Below, piece after piece: positions 18,354-31,296 of a stretch of DNA of 33,131 bases (position 1 is the stretch's first letter; every line of letters starts with the position of its first letter). A program made the position numbers and the translations under genes. Origin of the DNA: a virus. The stretch covers positions 1-33,131 of the IMG/VR virus record IMGVR_UViG_3300007523_000043; one strand, written 5' to 3'. The notes beneath the pieces are model-generated. The model did not search any database. It saw only the letters and a program-made list of their open reading frames with translations, and was not told the DNA's origin.

Positions 18354-19868
18354 TTAGTAAGCGCCTACTCCTGTGAGTATTGATGGTATAATAGCTACTG
18401 TTCTAGTAGGGTCTTTTACCATTGCTCCTAGTTCGCACATTCTGTGAACAGTGTAACCGTCCGTAGAGTGAGCCATTCTAGTATTCCTTGTCTTGAGTTT
18501 ATCTGGACTTCTTAGTCCTTCAATAACACCCCAGATGTCCTCAGATCCACGCTTGTAGACCTTACGGATGTTAGGCTCTCCGTCAGAAGTACCTACGTCC
18601 AAGATGTCATATCGGTATGACTCAGCAAAACCACGCTTAGGGTGGTAAACTTTATTCCTCTCTGGATTATCATACATAGGCTCGTGAGAGACGGTAATCT
18701 CTACACCATTAGGTCCTATGTAGTTAAGGAACTGACCTTTGTATGTCATTGAGTTATCCTTGCCAGCGACTACACGAGTCTGGTCCAACAAGGGGGTATA
18801 CAATGCTACATAATCTTCAAGGGCTTCAGAGAATTGGTACATACCCCACTCTCCTGTCCTCCAAATAAACTTACGTTTATCTTTAGATAGTTTACCTACA
18901 GATAGATCCAACATCCTTTCGGTAGCCCACTTGATGTCAAATTCACCATAGTATGCTGTGTTACTGGCCTCCATCTGTTGACGGATACCTGCTCCTTGGA
19001 TTATCTCGTACCCACTGATTCCTTTCTTTTTGAAAGTACCATCAGAAGATTTCATTGTACGTGCGAAATACAACAGTTTATTTTTCTCTTCTCTAAATTG
19101 AGTTTCGAACTCCCAGTCTGCATATTGCATCCAAGTACTCATAGTATCAGTTTTACCTGGTGCTGAACCCGACTTGGTATAGTCTGGTCCTGTAGGTACT
19201 TGCCAGCTAAACGCAACTGGTTTGTCGATCATATCTCCAGGACGAGTATCTTCCATACGTATCATGGAGAAGTCGTTAATCATAGAGAAGGGAGAGGTGT
19301 AAGTCACAAGACCACCTTTAGTAGAGAGAGTTCTTTCTACTGGGGTCCACTCACGAGACCACCTTGTACCATTTTGAAGTTCTTCAAAAGGGATAAATAC
19401 TGTTTCATCTGGGTGAAATAATTCACAGAGATAGTGGTATTCATTAGGGCCTACTGGAGTTGGTTCTTGTACGATACGTACAGGGTACGCTTCATTCTTA
19501 TTACCTACAATCAAGTTTTGATCGGAGAAATAGGGCTCACCATATATAAGGGTAAACCTAGAACCATACTTACCTACTTGGTCTGCTGGTTGGGATGGGA
19601 CTCCATCTACTTCACAACGAAGCAATGGAATGTTTTTTCTACTATTACCTTGGAGCATCCAACGGAAGCTTTCATTCGTATCCAAAGTCAAGGAGTCGAA
19701 TTGATTCAAAAAAGACTCAAGATCGTTTCCAAAATTAATCTCTAGAAGTCTAGAAACTAGTTTAGTAGCGTACTGAGGCTCTAGTCCATAAATTTGGCCT
19801 ATATGATTAGCTGTCGTCAAACCCGTCCAATCAGTAGGCAAATATTCTACAAAATCACTTATTTTCAT
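18354..19868 (-). CDS. Major capsid protein
   Basis: A 504-aa protein in the place of the capsid gene: behind terminase, portal and scaffold-like genes. Length and general character fit crAss-like capsid proteins (around 500 aa, HK97 fold). The N-terminal region is helical (about 1-65) and is followed by mixed alpha/beta sequence, with a beta-rich C-terminal half and many aromatic residues. Its codons look well adapted, and a strong stem-loop lies right behind the gene, both usual for the most highly expressed virion gene. There is a 15-nt gap to the scaffold-like gene and no Shine-Dalgarno sequence. HK97 folds cannot be proven by eye, so the call is by order and size. Confidence 0.8.
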   Translation of the reverse strand: MKISDFVEYLPTDWTGLTTANHIGQIYGLEPQYATKLVSRLLEINFGNDLESFLNQFDSLTLDTNESFRWMLQGNSRKNIPLLRCEVDGVPSQPADQVGKYGSRFTLIYGEPYFSDQNLIVGNKNEAYPVRIVQEPTPVGPNEYHYLCELFHPDETVFIPFEELQNGTRWSREWTPVERTLSTKGGLVTYTSPFSMINDFSMIRMEDTRPGDMIDKPVAFSWQVPTGPDYTKSGSAPGKTDTMSTWMQYADWEFETQFREEKNKLLYFARTMKSSDGTFKKKGISGYEIIQGAGIRQQMEASNTAYYGEFDIKWATERMLDLSVGKLSKDKRKFIWRTGEWGMYQFSEALEDYVALYTPLLDQTRVVAGKDNSMTYKGQFLNYIGPNGVEITVSHEPMYDNPERNKVYHPKRGFAESYRYDILDVGTSDGEPNIRKVYKRGSEDIWGVIEGLRSPDKLKTRNTRMAHSTDGYTVHRMCELGAMVKDPTRTVAIIPSILTGVGAY

Positions 19869-23475: not shown

Positions 23476-25710
23476 TCATTGAATTCTTGGGGGTATATTA
23501 AGTAATTTGTGCATATTATTATGGCTTTTCCCTTTAAAGGGTCTGTCCCAAAATGCATCCGCAGATGCAGAGACTTTATTAACAACAGACTCTGTACTCA
23601 TCATTTCTTGGTCTGATAAAAGTATCATTAACATACCCAAAGCAGACACCCTATCAAAGTTAGCTTCTGGATTCCAAAACAAGAGTTCCAGTACCATACC
23701 TAGAGACCTTATAGTAAATACATTGTTGACTTCAGGATTTTTATAAGAGTTATCTAAAAGGTAAGTTTTAAGAAGATCTCTACCAAACTTATTGACTTCT
23801 TTACTAGCTAGAGTGCCATAAGACTTGTTGAGGGCCGATTGAGTTTTAAGCATGTTTTTATCATGCAGTATTTTAGGGGTTTCACATAAAAGATGTAATG
23901 ACCTCTTATTCTGAAAGTATGCAAACAATCCTTTTTTATTACTTTCGTAATTACATTTAGCATTATAGTAAATAAGGAGCTTTCTAAGGTTCTCGTAATA
24001 CTCTGCTACTGTAGCATGTCTAGCTGTATACTCTGCTACTATTCGCCTAGTAAGCCTATGCATTATAAATGCTGACTGAAGAGACCCCTCAAAGCCATCA
24101 TCATCTACAGGGTCACAACCTGCTATGTAAATTCCACCTGGAACCTCCCCCATTATCTCTACAGGATGCTCGAATATCTCTACACAACCTTGGTGGGCTG
24201 CTGTAGATTTATAGGGGTATTTTCTTATAGGCTCGTCACCTGTTATTTGAAACTCTACATTATCTGCCCTTACTCTACAGAAACCCCTCCAGTGGGCGTA
24301 CTCATACCTTTTAGGGTCTGATTCTATATCCCCCTTTTGCATTTTGAGATCTATAGTAGGAAAGAAGTTAGAGTCTTGGTTATAAAAGATCTCACTAGGC
24401 ACTAGTGGCCTATTGATTATACGACCTGCGTAAAGCTCTTTGTTTTTTTCTACCTCTTTTCTATACTCAGTTACCCAATCCTCTGCTCTCTTAAAGTTTG
24501 TTTCTAAGTTAAACCCCTCTTTAAACTGGTTAAGTACCATCGTCCCAGGTACAAAATACCCTATAGGACTATCTCTATTTTCCCACTTATCAGGGAACCC
24601 TAAACAATTATATGCTAAGGGGTCAAACATAATATCCATTGTGTGGATTGCAGCTAATCCTTTTGACAGTCCACCCGTTCCAAACATATGGATGACTCCA
24701 TATTGCTCTCCACTGGCAGACACTACGTCCTTTAGCCCCGCTAAAACATCTTTAATATTATTCATGTACCCCACCTCTTCTAGAAATACCTTAGAACAAC
24801 GGAGTCCAGCTGCAACTCCTGGATTATCTTTAAAGGTTACATGGATTACCTGAGACCCAGAATCTTCGTTTACAAACCTCATCCCAGACCTAAGAGACCC
24901 TGAGGTACTAACAGAAAATGGTGAGGGGTACTCCACACCATTATACAATACCTTTCCTGGCATTAAGGCTAACATATCTTTGAACTTCTTAAGTAGGGCA
25001 TTACCATAAGTAGCATTAATCGAACCCACTAAGATTTGGGTTACACCTGCCTTACCTTCTTTTTTACCCTCTAGGTACTCATCATAGTATAGTGCACCAT
25101 CAAATAAAAAGTCGTGTGTTATTTCCCCTGCTGCATTAAAGGATTTACCACCATCTCGTGATTCAAGATCTATAAGATTGTGAGCATGGTTTAACCATAC
25201 AGCTCTCCCCTTATTTTCATTGTGTAACTTCCTTAAGTATACCCTAGGGTTTACATAAGCTTTCCTTTCCCCTTTCTTATTAAATAAGTTGTTGTAGGAC
25301 CTGGTATTTATTTTTTGGGTGTCTTGGTCTATAGTATGATATTTCTTCAGTTCATCATCTGATAAATCACCTTTTAATAGGTGGTTACAAGAAAAATCTT
25401 GGTCATCCTCGAACCCCGAAAAGCCCATAGCCTCTGCTTTCACAAAGGCCTTGTCCCACTCAAGATCTCTCAACCAAGGGGCTACCATCTTTTTACTTTT
25501 ATCGTGGGACATCTCTATCTTACAGAAATTCACATAAAAATAAAGAAGGCCTGGCATCCATTTTCCAGAATGCCAGAACCCCTCAATACTTCTCCTCTTT
25601 TGCTCCTTCCACCACGAGGCCCTTTTATGGGATTGTGATACAGGATTAAAATAAGGAATTTCTTTTAGAAGAAAGTCTTTAGAATTGTATTGCTCTTTCG
25701 TCTCCTGCAA
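23476..25710 (-). CDS. terL: Terminase large subunit
   Basis: A 744-aa packaging motor protein. N-terminal ATPase: Walker A S-R-D-G-G-K-S (about 185-191), Walker B K-V-F-L-E-E (307-312), and a G-T-G-G coupling segment near 324. C-terminal RNase H-like nuclease: G-C-D-P-V-D-D-D-G at 531-539 provides metal-binding aspartates, followed by further acidic residues. The N-terminal F-W-H-S-G-K-W-M-P-G-L-L-Y-F segment is common to terminases of this group. The only near start is the TTG at 25710, two codons after an in-frame TAA and overlapping the previous gene by 32 nt; the first ATG is codon 52, which would remove conserved sequence. A TACCTTTGTA box lies about 130 nt upstream in the preceding gene. 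Confidence 0.92.
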   Translation of the reverse strand: MQETKEQYNSKDFLLKEIPYFNPVSQSHKRASWWKEQKRRSIEGFWHSGKWMPGLLYFYVNFCKIEMSHDKSKKMVAPWLRDLEWDKAFVKAEAMGFSGFEDDQDFSCNHLLKGDLSDDELKKYHTIDQDTQKINTRSYNNLFNKKGERKAYVNPRVYLRKLHNENKGRAVWLNHAHNLIDLESRDGGKSFNAAGEITHDFLFDGALYYDEYLEGKKEGKAGVTQILVGSINATYGNALLKKFKDMLALMPGKVLYNGVEYPSPFSVSTSGSLRSGMRFVNEDSGSQVIHVTFKDNPGVAAGLRCSKVFLEEVGYMNNIKDVLAGLKDVVSASGEQYGVIHMFGTGGLSKGLAAIHTMDIMFDPLAYNCLGFPDKWENRDSPIGYFVPGTMVLNQFKEGFNLETNFKRAEDWVTEYRKEVEKNKELYAGRIINRPLVPSEIFYNQDSNFFPTIDLKMQKGDIESDPKRYEYAHWRGFCRVRADNVEFQITGDEPIRKYPYKSTAAHQGCVEIFEHPVEIMGEVPGGIYIAGCDPVDDDGFEGSLQSAFIMHRLTRRIVAEYTARHATVAEYYENLRKLLIYYNAKCNYESNKKGLFAYFQNKRSLHLLCETPKILHDKNMLKTQSALNKSYGTLASKEVNKFGRDLLKTYLLDNSYKNPEVNNVFTIRSLGMVLELLFWNPEANFDRVSALGMLMILLSDQEMMSTESVVNKVSASADAFWDRPFKGKSHNNMHKLLNIPPRIQ

Positions 25711-26011: not shown

Positions 26012-26201
26012 CGACTAAATTTATAAATCTACTTACTACTTCTTCTACTTCTATACCAAAAGATTCAAAGACCTCCTCGAAGTCATCTTTGAGTACACCA
26101 ACTTCACTAGTTCTGAGATTTCTTTTTACCCTATAAGTTTTACTGTCAGGCCCCTCCACTTTCATTAATAAGTGCACCCTGTATTTTTTTTCTTCATTCA
26201 T
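26001..26201 (-). CDS. Small 66-aa protein
   Basis: A charged 66-aa protein: a beta-rich first half (Y-R-V-H-L-L-M-K-V-E and T-Y-R-V-K-R) and an acidic helical second half. An ATGA overlap joins it to the gene upstream and an 11-nt overlap to the gene downstream. No recognisable domain. Confidence 0.6.
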   Translation of the reverse strand: MNEEKKYRVHLLMKVEGPDSKTYRVKRNLRTSEVGVLKDDFEEVFESFGIEVEEVVSRFINLVDEQ

Positions 26202-26734
26202 ATTTCATTAGAGCTAGAAAGGGATTGTATTTTACCACCCCTACCTAGTTTGTTTAACTCTTCTTTATAAGCTTTAGCAACCTTCTCATAGTCTGCATAG
26301 AACTTAGCTGTATTAGCTAAAATGCTGTCTAAGGTTTTTATAGCGTCTAAATCTCCTGATTTAAGTGCCATCTTGTAAAGGTTTTTTACCTCTTTATCCC
26401 TCATTGCCATAGTTTCGTTCCATGTGACTAAGCTTCTTTCTGCTTGAGAGAGTGCCATCTGTTTAAATTGGTGTATCTCTTCCAAGTAGTCCTCCCAAGA
26501 AAACTTTGAGTCCTCTAGAAAGTCTGTAGCCAACACTTGCATTTTTTCATCCTCAGGAATATTCCTGTAAATATTACTTTCAGAGGGGTCACAAAGGAAT
26601 GCTATAGCCCACATTATTTTAGAGCTGTGCACAGGATCCTTTTTATAAAGATCCTTGTACAATCCCATTATTTTAAATTGCGGATATACATTCCAAAAGT
26701 TCTCCTCTTCATCAAATGTCGACAGTAGCCCCAT
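26198..26734 (-). CDS. Helical protein, candidate terminase small subunit
   Basis: A 178-aa, almost fully helical protein with a charged central coiled coil (about 95-165). It lies three genes ahead of the large terminase. Phage small terminase subunits are usually helical proteins of this size placed just upstream, so it is the best candidate in the window, but I see no clear helix-turn-helix and the family is not recognised. The ATG overlaps the upstream stop by one base; an ATGA overlap leads to the next gene. Confidence 0.55.
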   Translation of the reverse strand: MGLLSTFDEEENFWNVYPQFKIMGLYKDLYKKDPVHSSKIMWAIAFLCDPSESNIYRNIPEDEKMQVLATDFLEDSKFSWEDYLEEIHQFKQMALSQAERSLVTWNETMAMRDKEVKNLYKMALKSGDLDAIKTLDSILANTAKFYADYEKVAKAYKEELNKLGRGGKIQSLSSSNEI

Positions 26735-26922: not shown

Positions 26923-28527
26923 TTAACTAAAATTAGATGAATTATCTTTACTACCTCTTTGCAACTGGGCCAGATCATTTTCATTCAAATGGTTCACTAT
27001 TGCACACTCTGTAGTCATTAGAAGACCCGCTATAGAACAAGCTGCTTCTAGTGCCACTCTTGTCACCTTCATTGGGTCTATGATACCTGAATCTAAAAGA
27101 TTACAGTGTTCCCCCTTTCTGGCGTCAAACCCTTGCTCTAGTTTAAATACTGAGGGGTCATAACCACCATTCAAAAGAATGTTATTAAATGGGGCTGCAC
27201 AAGCTCTGTACAAAATACTACCCCCTGGAGTTTTTGGTATAAACTCTCTTATTACCATAAGTGTATGACCACCACCAGGGACTATACCCTCCTCTAGTGC
27301 AGCTTTAGTTGCCTGGAGAGCGTCATCGACACGATCCTTTTTTTCTTTTAGGGCAACTGTTGTAAAAGCACCTATATAAACTCTGGCAACCTTACCCTCA
27401 AGTACGGCTATCCTATCTGCATATCTTTTTTGCCCCCACTTATCTTTACCCATAGTGGTAATATTCTCTTTAATGATATCAATTCTCTGTTTAAGAGCTT
27501 CTTTATCACCACCGCCACCTATAATAGTAGTCTTATCCCTAGTTACAATCACTCGTGTGGCTGTACCTACGTAAGTATTTTTGAGTTTGTTAATAGGAGT
27601 CCCCTCTTTAGCACTCATTACATGAGCCCCAGTTATTACAGCCAAGTCTTTAAGTATCTCTTGCCTAAGGGTAGCAACTGATGGGGCTCTTACACAAACA
27701 ATCCTAAGACTATTCCTCAGTCTATTATCTAATAGAGTGTGCAAACCTGCATAATCAAACTCTTCTGCTATAAAAAGAACTGGTCGACCTTTCTTGTGGG
27801 CCTCTTGTAGGAATGGCATAATACCCTGTACTTGTTCTAAAGTCTCAAATTTATCAGAAGTAATTAGAACATAAGCATCTTCAAAATTAACTACACCTTT
27901 ACCCTCATCTTCTGCAAAGTATTGAGATACGTACCCCTGCTCTATACTAGTACCCTCTGTTATTTCATACCAAGACCTTTCAGTAGAAGAATCCTCTACC
28001 GTAATAGAACCATCCTTACCAACTTCGTGGTACACATTAGATATTAAAGAGGCCACTTCTTTATCCCCATTAGAAGATATAAGAGCTACAGAATAGAGAT
28101 CTTCTTTATTCTTTATAGGAGTTGCTATCTCTAACAACTTCTCTTTCATAATATCTTTTGCAAGCAGAATCTCTTCATACAGCTGGATAGTATTAGTATC
28201 ATCCCTATCCCTTAAGGACATAGACTCCTTAAGTATAGCTTGGGCTAGTACTATAGCCGTTGTAGTACCATCCCCAGATTGATCTAGGGCTTTAGTAGCT
28301 ACATCTTGTAGCATAGAGACACCCATGTTCTCAAAACGATCCTCAAGAGTTATACTCCTAGCCACCGTAACTCCATCTTTTGTAATATGGGGAGTTATAT
28401 AGTTTTTATCTATTATAACATTCCTACCTTTAGGACCAAGGGTAGACTTAACTGCATCTGCAACTATATCTACACCCTTCTGAAGCCTATCCCTTACATC
28501 TTTGCCAAAATGTACTTCTCTTATCAT
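26923..28527 (-). CDS. groL: GroEL-type chaperonin (60-kDa class)
   Basis: A 534-aa group I chaperonin that aligns by eye with E. coli GroEL over the whole length. The nucleotide site is intact: L-G-P-K-G-R-N (30-36), K-D-G at 50-52, G-D-G-T-T-T at 85-90, the hydrolytic Asp at 402 in V-D-D-A-L-Q-A-T, and V-P-G-G-G at 416-420. T-T-E-C near the end also matches. Differences: the bacterial A-P-G-F-G-D-R-R segment of the apical domain reads A-P-S-V-A-T-L-R (281-288), and the Gly-Gly-Met tail is replaced by a polar end. It would fold phage (and perhaps host) proteins with the GroES-like partner encoded just upstream through an ATGA overlap. Rare among phages. Confidence 0.95.
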   Translation of the reverse strand: MIREVHFGKDVRDRLQKGVDIVADAVKSTLGPKGRNVIIDKNYITPHITKDGVTVARSITLEDRFENMGVSMLQDVATKALDQSGDGTTTAIVLAQAILKESMSLRDRDDTNTIQLYEEILLAKDIMKEKLLEIATPIKNKEDLYSVALISSNGDKEVASLISNVYHEVGKDGSITVEDSSTERSWYEITEGTSIEQGYVSQYFAEDEGKGVVNFEDAYVLITSDKFETLEQVQGIMPFLQEAHKKGRPVLFIAEEFDYAGLHTLLDNRLRNSLRIVCVRAPSVATLRQEILKDLAVITGAHVMSAKEGTPINKLKNTYVGTATRVIVTRDKTTIIGGGGDKEALKQRIDIIKENITTMGKDKWGQKRYADRIAVLEGKVARVYIGAFTTVALKEKKDRVDDALQATKAALEEGIVPGGGHTLMVIREFIPKTPGGSILYRACAAPFNNILLNGGYDPSVFKLEQGFDARKGEHCNLLDSGIIDPMKVTRVALEAACSIAGLLMTTECAIVNHLNENDLAQLQRGSKDNSSNFS

Positions 28528-28910
28528 AGAGGGGGGTTTTTAACTATAGCTAGCAATTGATGCTCCTCTAGTACATGATAAAAACAGTCGTCTATCATAA
28601 GTGGTTTTGTAGGTGGCATATACACCCCATTTTCATGGAACTGAAACCTAGGTATTACGTAGTCTCCCTTTTTAACTTTCAAGCAATTTTCTGCCGCAGC
28701 TAGTATTTTAATATACTTCCTCCCACCCCTATGCTCATTTTCCAATGACTCCATTTCTAGAGTGGTATCTTCCTCCTCTTTCTTAGGTTCTATGTAGAAT
28801 ATCACTGAGCTTGTTATAGGTTCTAAACCTATTTTGTCGAGGAGTGCTTCTGCTTCCTCCTCTGTGTAATGTTTTACTTCCTGTTCTCCGAACTTTAAAT
28901 CTTTATCCAC
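28524..28910 (-). CDS. GroES-like co-chaperonin
   Basis: A 128-aa protein joined to groEL by an ATGA overlap. Residues about 33-128 fit the GroES barrel: a first strand S-S-V-I-F-Y-I-E-P, a long charged loop where GroES has its mobile loop, then Y-I-K-I-L-A-A-A, V-K-K-G-D-Y-V-I, and a final strand H-Q-L-L-A-I-V. About 30 extra helical residues precede the barrel, and the mobile loop is more acidic than in bacteria. It should be the lid of the phage chaperonin. The start is GTG, overlapping the stop of the upstream gene; no ATG is available nearby. The pairing with groEL supports the call, since sequence similarity alone is weak. Confidence 0.75.
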   Translation of the reverse strand: MDKDLKFGEQEVKHYTEEEAEALLDKIGLEPITSSVIFYIEPKKEEEDTTLEMESLENEHRGGRKYIKILAAAENCLKVKKGDYVIPRFQFHENGVYMPPTKPLMIDDCFYHVLEEHQLLAIVKNPPL

Positions 28911-29293
28911 TATTTTATTTTTTTTAATTCTTCCTTCTTTCTTTCAATAAGAATCTTCTCAAAGTCTTCTATAAGACTCATATGATCTTTTTTCTTACTT
29001 TCATCCTGCACTTTCTTAGGTCTCCTATAGGTTACCCCTTTGGATTTACCCTTATAAATAATGTTAGATTTACCATCCCTCAGTATCTTACCATCTTCAT
29101 CAATCGAAGGGATCAAGAAACTTGATATGTGGATAAAGTCCTTCTTCTTTGCCCTCATCTCGTTTAATTTCCTCCGTAGGATGTACTGCTCCCTGGTCTC
29201 TTTCTCTAACCTCTGATTCAGTATTGAATCGTATATCTCCAGATCTTTGCCGTCCTTCTGTAGGATTGTTAGTATTTTGTATTCTCCACTCAT
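28910..29293 (-). CDS. Lys/Arg-rich protein, possibly the second half of the upstream IHF-like gene
   Basis: A 127-aa basic, charged protein. Codons are of the type used in neighbouring genes (ATA, CTA, AGG, AAA), so the frame appears to be real. Its ATG lies within the end of an A7 run and an in-frame TAA lies three codons before it. Its first 65 codons overlap the upstream IHF-like frame, whose own continuation there looks like a shadow (CGG/CGA codons, Arg-rich). Either it is a separate gene with a 194-nt overlap, or one gene is split by a frameshift at the A7 run. The protein has no recognised domain; the C-terminal third is a Lys/Glu-rich helix. Confidence 0.6.
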   Translation of the reverse strand: MSGEYKILTILQKDGKDLEIYDSILNQRLEKETREQYILRRKLNEMRAKKKDFIHISSFLIPSIDEDGKILRDGKSNIIYKGKSKGVTYRRPKKVQDESKKKDHMSLIEDFEKILIERKKEELKKIK

Positions 29294-29504
29294 CTTTTTT
29301 TAGTTTGGGTTTAAACTTTAATGTGAATTTACCCAGACTGGGTATTAAAAAAGTCTTGTAGTCCCATATATTTTCTTGTGCTACTATATCCTCCTTTATC
29401 ATCTTATAGTAGTTTTCTACTATTGTGTACACAACACTTTTAGGTTGGATCTTTTCTATGGATATCTTGTTAGCTATGTTTCTTATTGTCTGGTCCTTCC
29501 TCAT
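29100..29504 (-). CDS. HU/IHF-like protein (frame possibly broken at the C-terminus)
   Basis: A 134-aa open frame. Residues about 13-70 match an HU/IHF domain: a helix-turn-helix (I-Q-P-K-S-V-V-Y-T-I-V-E-N-Y-Y), then F-L-I-P-S-L-G-K-F-T-L-K-F-K-P-K, the strand entry with conserved Pro and Gly. Such proteins are recurrent in crAss-like genomes and bind or bend DNA. After K-L-K-K (about residue 72) the frame overlaps the next ORF for 194 nt, and its product becomes Arg-rich and unlike neighbouring proteins. The real product may therefore continue into the other frame. It overlaps the upstream gene by 35 nt and starts with ATG. Confidence 0.65.
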   Translation of the reverse strand: MRKDQTIRNIANKISIEKIQPKSVVYTIVENYYKMIKEDIVAQENIWDYKTFLIPSLGKFTLKFKPKLKKDEWRIQNTNNPTEGRQRSGDIRFNTESEVRERDQGAVHPTEEIKRDEGKEEGLYPHIKFLDPFD

Positions 29505-29856
29505 TTATTGTAAACTTAAAAGTAAGTGTAGTATCTTTACTGTTACCTATAAGATACGGGTGTACTATTCTATTGTCTACTATAACCCCCCTCTTTCTCA
29601 AGGATGTAAGTATATTAGCGTGAGAGTTAAAAGAAATGTCTCCTAAGGACTCTCTCACCCTCATCTTAGCATCGTAATCCATAGATAACCTCCAAGCTAT
29701 ATCCTCCTTACCAATTGCTTCGTAGTTGATCCAGTATTCCTCAGCTATTAGTGCTAAGGCCCTTCTTTCTAAAGGGGGTAAATTAAAAAAAGGATTCATT
29801 AACTCGTAATACCTCAAGAAGTATCCCTTCTTATCTGTTTTTATATTAATAGTCAT
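29470..29856 (-). CDS. Winged-helix-like protein
   Basis: A 128-aa protein, mainly helical, with L-P-P-L-E-R-R-A-L-A-L-I-A near residue 27, then a helix-rich core, H-A-N-I-L-T-S-L-R-K-R-G-V-I-V-D-N-R-I-V (about 80-100) and a beta-rich end. The last segment reads like the recognition helix plus wing of a winged helix, as in replication-initiation and Rep-like proteins. In crAss-like phages such small proteins lie at the head of the late block. It may be a DNA-binding late regulator; this is inference. It overlaps the neighbouring genes by 11 and 35 nt. Confidence 0.6.
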   Translation of the reverse strand: MTINIKTDKKGYFLRYYELMNPFFNLPPLERRALALIAEEYWINYEAIGKEDIAWRLSMDYDAKMRVRESLGDISFNSHANILTSLRKRGVIVDNRIVHPYLIGNSKDTTLTFKFTINEEGPDNKKHS

Positions 29857-30324: not shown

Positions 30325-31296
30325 TTAATTCACCCATATACTTCCCTCTACAAGAGCTTCTGATTTAAGACTCTTAGCAAACACCCTTTTCCTTCCGTCA
30401 GAAAGGTCATACAACCCGTACGAATAGATACCTGAGATCCAAGCTGGAAATAGGTAGTGCACGTAAACTACCCTCACTACAGGGTCTCCTGGCTCTTCAC
30501 CATTAATATATAATCCGTTTATCCACTCTCCTAGAGGAGTAAGAGCACCGTTAAAAACTAACCCTATATTAGAAGTTAGGTTTTCCATAAGCTGTAGACC
30601 AAACTCATCTATAGACCTCATCTTAGCTCTAATCTTAGTCCACAAGCCAACTGTAATAGTGTAAACATCCGTAGAAGCTGTGATAGTAGAGGATGCTACC
30701 CCAGACTCTATAATAACTACCCCGTTAGGCCAAGTTGCTACAGTATCAAAGTAGGACAAATCTATTTCAACCTTACCATAGTTTTGATATATGTGCATGT
30801 CTAACCTATCAGTAGGCCCCATAAGGCTTATAAGCTTAGAGTTCCAACCCTCTCTAAATAGTTTGAACCTAACTCCTTGTTGGTTAGAGGGAAACTCACC
30901 AGAATATATCTTAGAGTAGGGCAGCACTGCTGAGTACAGTTGTGCTTTATTAAAATAAATCTCAGCTTCAGACTCCCCAAAAGCAAATGCAGCATTTTGC
31001 CAAACCCCATCTAGAGAAGAGTCTTGGCTTTCTTCATTACCAAGTCGAACACTGTTTATAGTGATACCCTTTGAAATATATCTATTCACCTCGGCCAATT
31101 CTTGTGCAGGGGTTCTTTTTAAACAAACAGAGTAGACTACTTCCTTCCCAGAAGCAGCCAATGCGTTTAATTGTGCGTCTGTAGCAAAGTTGTTAGGATC
31201 CTCAGACCAAGTTCCTCCATTACAAACCTTAGTAACTTTCGATAGGTTCCATGTACCTATATTCACCCCAGAACGGAGTGGTGCATTTATTATCAT
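30325..31296 (-). CDS. Clan-A glycosidase-like TIM-barrel protein
   Basis: A 323-aa protein without signal peptide. It has the order of motifs of retaining glycosidases of the clan GH-A type: a strand V-V-Y-S-V (53-57), R-L-G-N-E88 (Asn-Glu as acid/base), M-H168-I-Y-Q, V-V-I-I-E197-S-G (candidate nucleophile on strand 7), and a late I-G-L-V-F-N-G strand. A beta-rich C-terminal domain follows (about 265-323). If active it would split a glycan, for example of the host capsule or wall, as a virion part or during lysis. Its place at the head of the late block, away from fibres, is unusual. It starts at an ATG directly behind the stop of the 53-aa gene. The fold is inferred; an inactive, binding-only role is possible. 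Confidence 0.6.
   Translation of the reverse strand: MIINAPLRSGVNIGTWNLSKVTKVCNGGTWSEDPNNFATDAQLNALAASGKEVVYSVCLKRTPAQELAEVNRYISKGITINSVRLGNEESQDSSLDGVWQNAAFAFGESEAEIYFNKAQLYSAVLPYSKIYSGEFPSNQQGVRFKLFREGWNSKLISLMGPTDRLDMHIYQNYGKVEIDLSYFDTVATWPNGVVIIESGVASSTITASTDVYTITVGLWTKIRAKMRSIDEFGLQLMENLTSNIGLVFNGALTPLGEWINGLYINGEEPGDPVVRVVYVHYLFPAWISGIYSYGLYDLSDGRKRVFAKSLKSEALVEGSIWVN

Follow-up and report, generated by a model that had tools for sequence, protein, structure and literature searches.

A divergent GroEL gene and an overlapping GroES-type lid gene form a probable chaperonin pair in a crassvirus

The stretch of viral DNA analysed here in full (33,131 nucleotides, IMG/VR record IMGVR_UViG_3300007523_000043; "the window") encodes a divergent GroEL, whose gene directly follows that of a 128-residue GroES-type lid and overlaps it in the sequence ATGA. 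We consider it likely that the phage barrel and lid make up a working, encapsulating group I chaperonin pair of a crassvirus that acts on phage proteins. The pair is real and belongs to an already known type, phage GroEL/GroES pairs having been known before. Its lid represents a rapidly evolving form of a co-chaperonin gene, which in gut relatives usually occurs with no barrel gene close by.

The overlapping genes and their neighbourhood

The window belongs to a crassvirus, with a PF23898 major capsid protein and PHROG matches for terminase and portal; among named phages, Cellulophaga phage phi14:2 has the closest terminase. Scans of viral contigs for further relatives of the pair returned only one locus, L003, in which GroEL is 72% and the lid 62% identical to the window proteins, and the order and overlap of the genes are alike. 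The genes considered below are as follows.

18354..19868 (-), crassvirus major capsid protein, possible client (PF23898, 5.1e-132)
23476..25710 (-), terminase large subunit (PHROG 6681, 1.4e-81)
26198..26734 (-), 178-aa gene, counterpart of phi14:2 g095 and, by position, of crAss001 gp16 (blastp 2e-22)
26923..28527 (-), GroEL, group I chaperonin, 534 aa (Pfam, PHROG)
28524..28527 (-), ATGA overlap of 4 bp, lid stop and GroEL start (sequence; a 4-bp overlap also in L003)
28524..28910 (-), GroES-type co-chaperonin (lid), 128 aa, GTG start, crAss001 gp15 counterpart (synteny, L003 copy, model)
28910..29293 (-), 127-aa gene between the HU-like and lid genes, in the window and L003 only
29100..29504 (-), HU-like protein, crAss001 gp14 counterpart (blastp 2e-4 to crAss001 HU, 9e-36 to L003)
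29470..29856 (-), VpsT-like gene, counterpart of crAss001 gp13 and phi14:2 g098 (0/1000 shuffles; blastp 8e-15 to g098)

The larger reading frame of the pair matched Pfam Cpn60_TCP1 (7.7e-50) and PHROG 5725, groEL (1.8e-136), and the Cpn60 domain spanned the full length of the protein in the Pfam, PHROG and PDB (phmmer) comparisons, which identifies a group I chaperonin. The order in the window is the gp13-like gene, the HU-like gene, the extra gene at 28910-29293, lid, GroEL, the 178-aa g095 homologue and then terminase, which lies about 1.2 kb downstream of GroEL with four small genes in between. In crAss001 the order is VpsT-like gp13, HU gp14, gp15 (annotated 'putative 10kDa chaperonin'), gp16, gp17, an intron endonuclease and terminase, and the core order in cr85_1 and cr111_1 is the same. 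The window lid occupies the slot of gp15, between the HU-like gene and terminase and with the gp13-like gene upstream.

Two further observations concern this region. The HU-like frame of the window extends beyond its HU-like part and overlaps the following gene by 194 bp; the HU frame of L003 is short (88 aa). Upstream of the module, a 323-aa gene (30325-31296) has 55% identity in L003.

Conserved and altered residues of the barrel and lid

The ATP-site residues of the window GroEL are intact (D51, D86 and D402, corresponding to E. coli D52, D87 and D398), and the alignment shows that T29-P32 and T88-T90 (tested as E. coli T30-P33 and T89-T91), G418-G419 and D484 are kept as well. Among nine apical residues that contact substrate or GroES, six are identical (Y199, S201, Y203, F204, L237 and L259) and three are changed (L234M, V263L and V264D). 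Other sites of the two proteins depart from the E. coli or host pattern.

27664..27681 (-), GroEL SVATLR (residues 283-288) replacing GFGDRR (E. coli 280-285) (alignment)
27937..27939 (-), GroEL Q197 replacing the salt-bridge residue Arg197 (alignment)
27358..27360 (-), GroEL T390 replacing the salt-bridge residue Glu386; Glu kept in L003 (alignment)
27151..27198 (-), GroEL equatorial segment of ring-ring contacts, with R452N, E461D and V464S and without S463 (alignment)
26926..26994 (-), GroEL C-terminal tail without GGM repeats; NENDLA-LQRG common to L003
28827..28910 (-), lid N-terminal extension, residues 1-28, predicted helix at 17-27 (alignment, model)
28722..28778 (-), lid mobile loop, residues 45-63, disordered in the model (alignment, model)
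28683..28688 (-), site of the roof hairpin of host GroES, absent in the window lid (alignment)

At the apical motif, five of the six letters differ and the final Arg is kept; SVATLR is also found in L003, while the motif was retained, with PGFGDRR-type letters, in 80 of 80 sampled host GroELs. The phage GroELs compared differ at this site to a varying degree. In E. coli GroEL, E386 is listed as pairing through salt bridges with R284, R285 and R197 during the T to R transition (PMC2664929), and the R197-E386 bridge is also given elsewhere (PMC3326522). The residues at R197, R284 and E386 are Gln, Leu and Thr in the window, with R285 kept, and Gln, Leu and Glu in L003. Because the arginines of the motif pair with E386, and because R197 and E386 are changed too, altered ring allostery appears to explain the motif change better than lid tuning alone, which is only a possible reading. 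The ring-ring residues K105, E434, R452, E461, S463 and V464 are altered or absent. The GGM tail, a common but not defining feature, is missing, and the other phage GroELs in the comparison likewise lack it or have a reduced one. Separately, the hinge residue Gly375 (window residue 379) is Lys in the window and L003, Ser in cr111_1 and Gly in all others compared.

The mobile loop of the lid reads DTTLEMESLE, whereas 73 of 78 host GroES have loops of GG-I-I-I-P types. Where GroES has its hydrophobic triplet the lid has L-E-M, and the loop is flexible in the model. By alignment, the roof hairpin is missing from the crAss001 gp15 family also.

Most of these features had been described in a first-pass annotation of the DNA, and the comparisons agreed with it on the full-length GroEL with an intact ATP site (Pfam, PHROGs and alignment), the ATGA overlap (seen in L003 as well), the replaced apical segment, the missing GGM tail, the unusual mobile loop and an N-terminal lid extension put at about 30 residues, of which we count about 28 before the start of GroES. 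Each residue that it had named was found at the stated position. Its proposal that the apical change tunes the barrel to its own lid was not supported as put: the segment holds R284 and R285, which pair with E386, both R197 and E386 have changed too, and most contacts to the mobile loop and substrate are kept.

We propose the following cycle for the pair. With the GroEL gene placed directly after the lid gene in ATGA overlap, translation of the two could be coupled. Unfolded phage proteins would be bound by the apical domains of the barrel, ATP bound at D51, D86 and D402 would drive ring opening, and the phage lid would then close the barrel, its missing roof hairpin perhaps making the cavity roomier or opening the dome, by analogy with T4 gp31. 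The likely client, judged solely by size and position, would be the major capsid protein of about 56 kDa. Loss at GFGDRR, R197 and E386 would remove the inter-subunit salt-bridge switch, and the rebuilt ring-ring contacts might make the rings separable; with both changes, the cycle is probably unlike that of E. coli GroEL, with weaker cooperativity. Since V264 has become Asp in the window GroEL and the middle loop residue of the lid is Glu, the predicted binding of the lid is not guaranteed. A more specific form of this proposal, in which a lid-using chaperonin lacks the salt-bridge switch (R197, R284 and E386) and the usual ring-ring contacts, encapsulates in rings that are single or readily separated, with a roofless crassvirus lid, and is dedicated to the capsid protein, is offered tentatively, as one possibility that we would not bet on.

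It is in our view unlikely that the two proteins do not form a pair, the lid serving the host GroEL as T4 gp31 does and the phage GroEL working lidless. The distribution of the genes lends this some weight, as gut crassviruses usually have the lid without a GroEL in reach: none was found near the gp15-type gene in 48 IMG/VR viral loci (the fetched stretch reached at least 3 kb on both sides in 34 of the 48), nor in the whole records of crAss001, cr85_1 and DAC15. GroEL is likewise missing from the whole records of FpV4 and cr50_1. Loss of R197-E386 has moreover been reported for the chaperonins of phages EL and OBP, and those of EL, OBP and AR9 were reported to work without a co-chaperonin (PMC7185714, PMC9598537). 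Against this, the 4-bp gene overlap is retained in both the window and L003, the apical lid contacts are mostly kept, and the lid loop (L-E-M) and helix I (V264 to D/A) are both changed, as partners might be. We favour a barrel and lid that act together.

Identity of the lid and origin of the pair

That the partner of GroEL is GroES-like had been proposed on first reading, and this stood by gene order, relatives and guided fold, although the sequence libraries did not recognise it. The window lid had no match in Pfam, PHROGs or a PDB sequence search (phmmer), it was unmatched when the genome was searched with PF00166, and a profile of the window and L003 lids aligned to GroES (hhalign) with a probability of only 0.8-3%. 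As PF00166 does not match the lid, its assignment to GroES comes from its relatives, the order of the genes and the fold.

The relatives lead to GroES stepwise. The gp15-family profile matched the GroES profile with an hhalign probability of 97.7 (E 2.5e-12), and phi14:2 g096, whose gene occupies the gp15 slot, gave 90.7% against GroES and 85.1% against the gp15 family. The L003 lid is collinear with g096 over nearly its whole length (0/3000 shuffles; 64/3000 for the window lid), and against the gp15-family HMM the scores were low, 6.6 bits for the window lid (3/2000 shuffles) and 8.9 bits for the L003 lid (0/2000). When the phi14:2 proteins were compared, g096 came first for the L003 lid and was outscored by g106 and g098 for the window lid. 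The link from the L003 lid through g096 to GroES supports transitive homology. We also note that g096 (L008:7767-8156) is annotated 'hypothetical protein'; being GroES-type by profile comparison, it gives phi14:2 both chaperonin parts.

A model of the window lid, built from an alignment that combined rows of the gp15 family with rows of host GroES, had a pLDDT of 79.4 and a pTM of 0.73 and took the GroES fold; its top Foldseek PDB hits were all GroES, its best matches overall were GroES, Cpn10 and gp31 chains and a single chain from a Clp complex of chloroplasts (7ekq), VIA Z reached 8.2, and phi14:2 g096 was first among viral models. The GroES rows in its alignment make this model partly circular as evidence, and a model made without them, from two sequences, had a pLDDT of 33 and was unusable. 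Gene order, homology through relatives and the alignment-guided fold agree, so far as alignments and models can tell, that the 128-aa protein is a GroES-type lid. An unrelated small neighbour of GroEL could equally lack library matches and yield an unusable unguided model, but this explanation is very improbable given the position of the gene, which is that of crAss001 gp15, the transitive homology and the full-length collinear alignment.

The window and L003 GroELs share a long stem of their own in GroEL trees, inside no host genus or phylum. Their deep placement is subject to long branches, and the trees rejected neither grouping with phi14:2 in a crassvirus clade (AU p 0.18) nor placement with Bacteroidota (p 0.33). 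GroEL and lid diverge at the pace of terminase and portal, and third codon positions change far more than first and second positions; these codon-position differences were used instead of dN/dS because dS is saturated. Such a pattern agrees with purifying selection that keeps pace with the structural genes. The lid looks like a standing crassvirus gene of the gp15 family, usually without a nearby GroEL, rather than one member of an operon taken from a host. Recent capture of a host groES-groEL operon, which the bacterial order of groES then groEL might suggest, is hardly credible and already contradicted, as the window GroEL is at most 43% identical to its best 80 host matches and lies on a long separate branch, and the lid, which synteny places with the crassvirus type, has no roof hairpin.

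Relation to known systems

T4 gp31 is, like the window lid, a phage lid, and it matches the lid model in structure (Z 5.6-6.6). Its roof is shortened, and it works with the host GroEL to serve the 56-kDa capsid protein gp23; T4 is not known to encode a GroEL of its own. The chaperonins of Pseudomonas phages EL and OBP and of Bacillus phage AR9 are, like that of the window, divergent phage GroELs, but were reported to be lid-independent.

Complete phage pairs, which the first-pass annotation had held to be rarer still than phage chaperonins, are less exceptional than that, as GroEL/GroES pairs also occur in immuto, phi38:1, SJC03 and elemoB. In Flavobacterium phage immuto, Cellulophaga phage phi38:1 and Bacteroides phage SJC03 the two genes are adjacent or close, as in the window; unlike the window lid, their lids match PF00166, and the gene neighbourhoods differ and the phages are not crassviruses. 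In addition to its Cpn10 gene, phi38:1 contains another GroES-like stretch within a 198-aa frame (KC821614.1 50246-50428 (+), locus L020), and in the human faecal phage fragment MT837166 (L114:6663-7547) GroES adjoins a cut GroEL.

Among crassviruses, the gp15 family of the Steigviridae shares with the window lid the slot from HU-like gene to terminase, the GroES-type core and the absent roof hairpin, whereas its gut members have GGIID-type loops and a long insertion preceding the final strands and lack the N-terminal extension; in crAss001 and cr85_1, unlike in the window, GroEL is absent altogether. Chaperonins go unmentioned in the main text both of the crAss001 paper and of Yutin 2021, and gp15, an annotated, little discussed gene, is here tied to GroES by several lines. 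Some crassviruses carry a barrel gene too. The whole records of phi14:2 and cr111_1 (Lahndsivirus rarus) contain GroEL upstream of the lid and not adjoining it, and viral-contig scans with these two GroELs returned phi14:2 itself only. Phage phi14:2 resembles the window in having both genes (g105 for GroEL, and g096) and in the N-terminal extension and LLEI loop of its lid, and differs in that g105, a protein of 490 aa with 37-38% identity, retains PGFG and is encoded some 2.3 kb upstream of the lid. In cr111_1, GroEL and a 10kDa chaperonin are both present and the motif is changed too (APYSNERQ), but GroEL is about 1.3 kb upstream of the lid and on a very long branch. Lid and GroEL overlap only in the window and L003 among the crassviruses compared. 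The natural series that results, from a lid without a nearby GroEL through both genes apart to both overlapping, asks how abundant gut phages supply the folding of their capsids.
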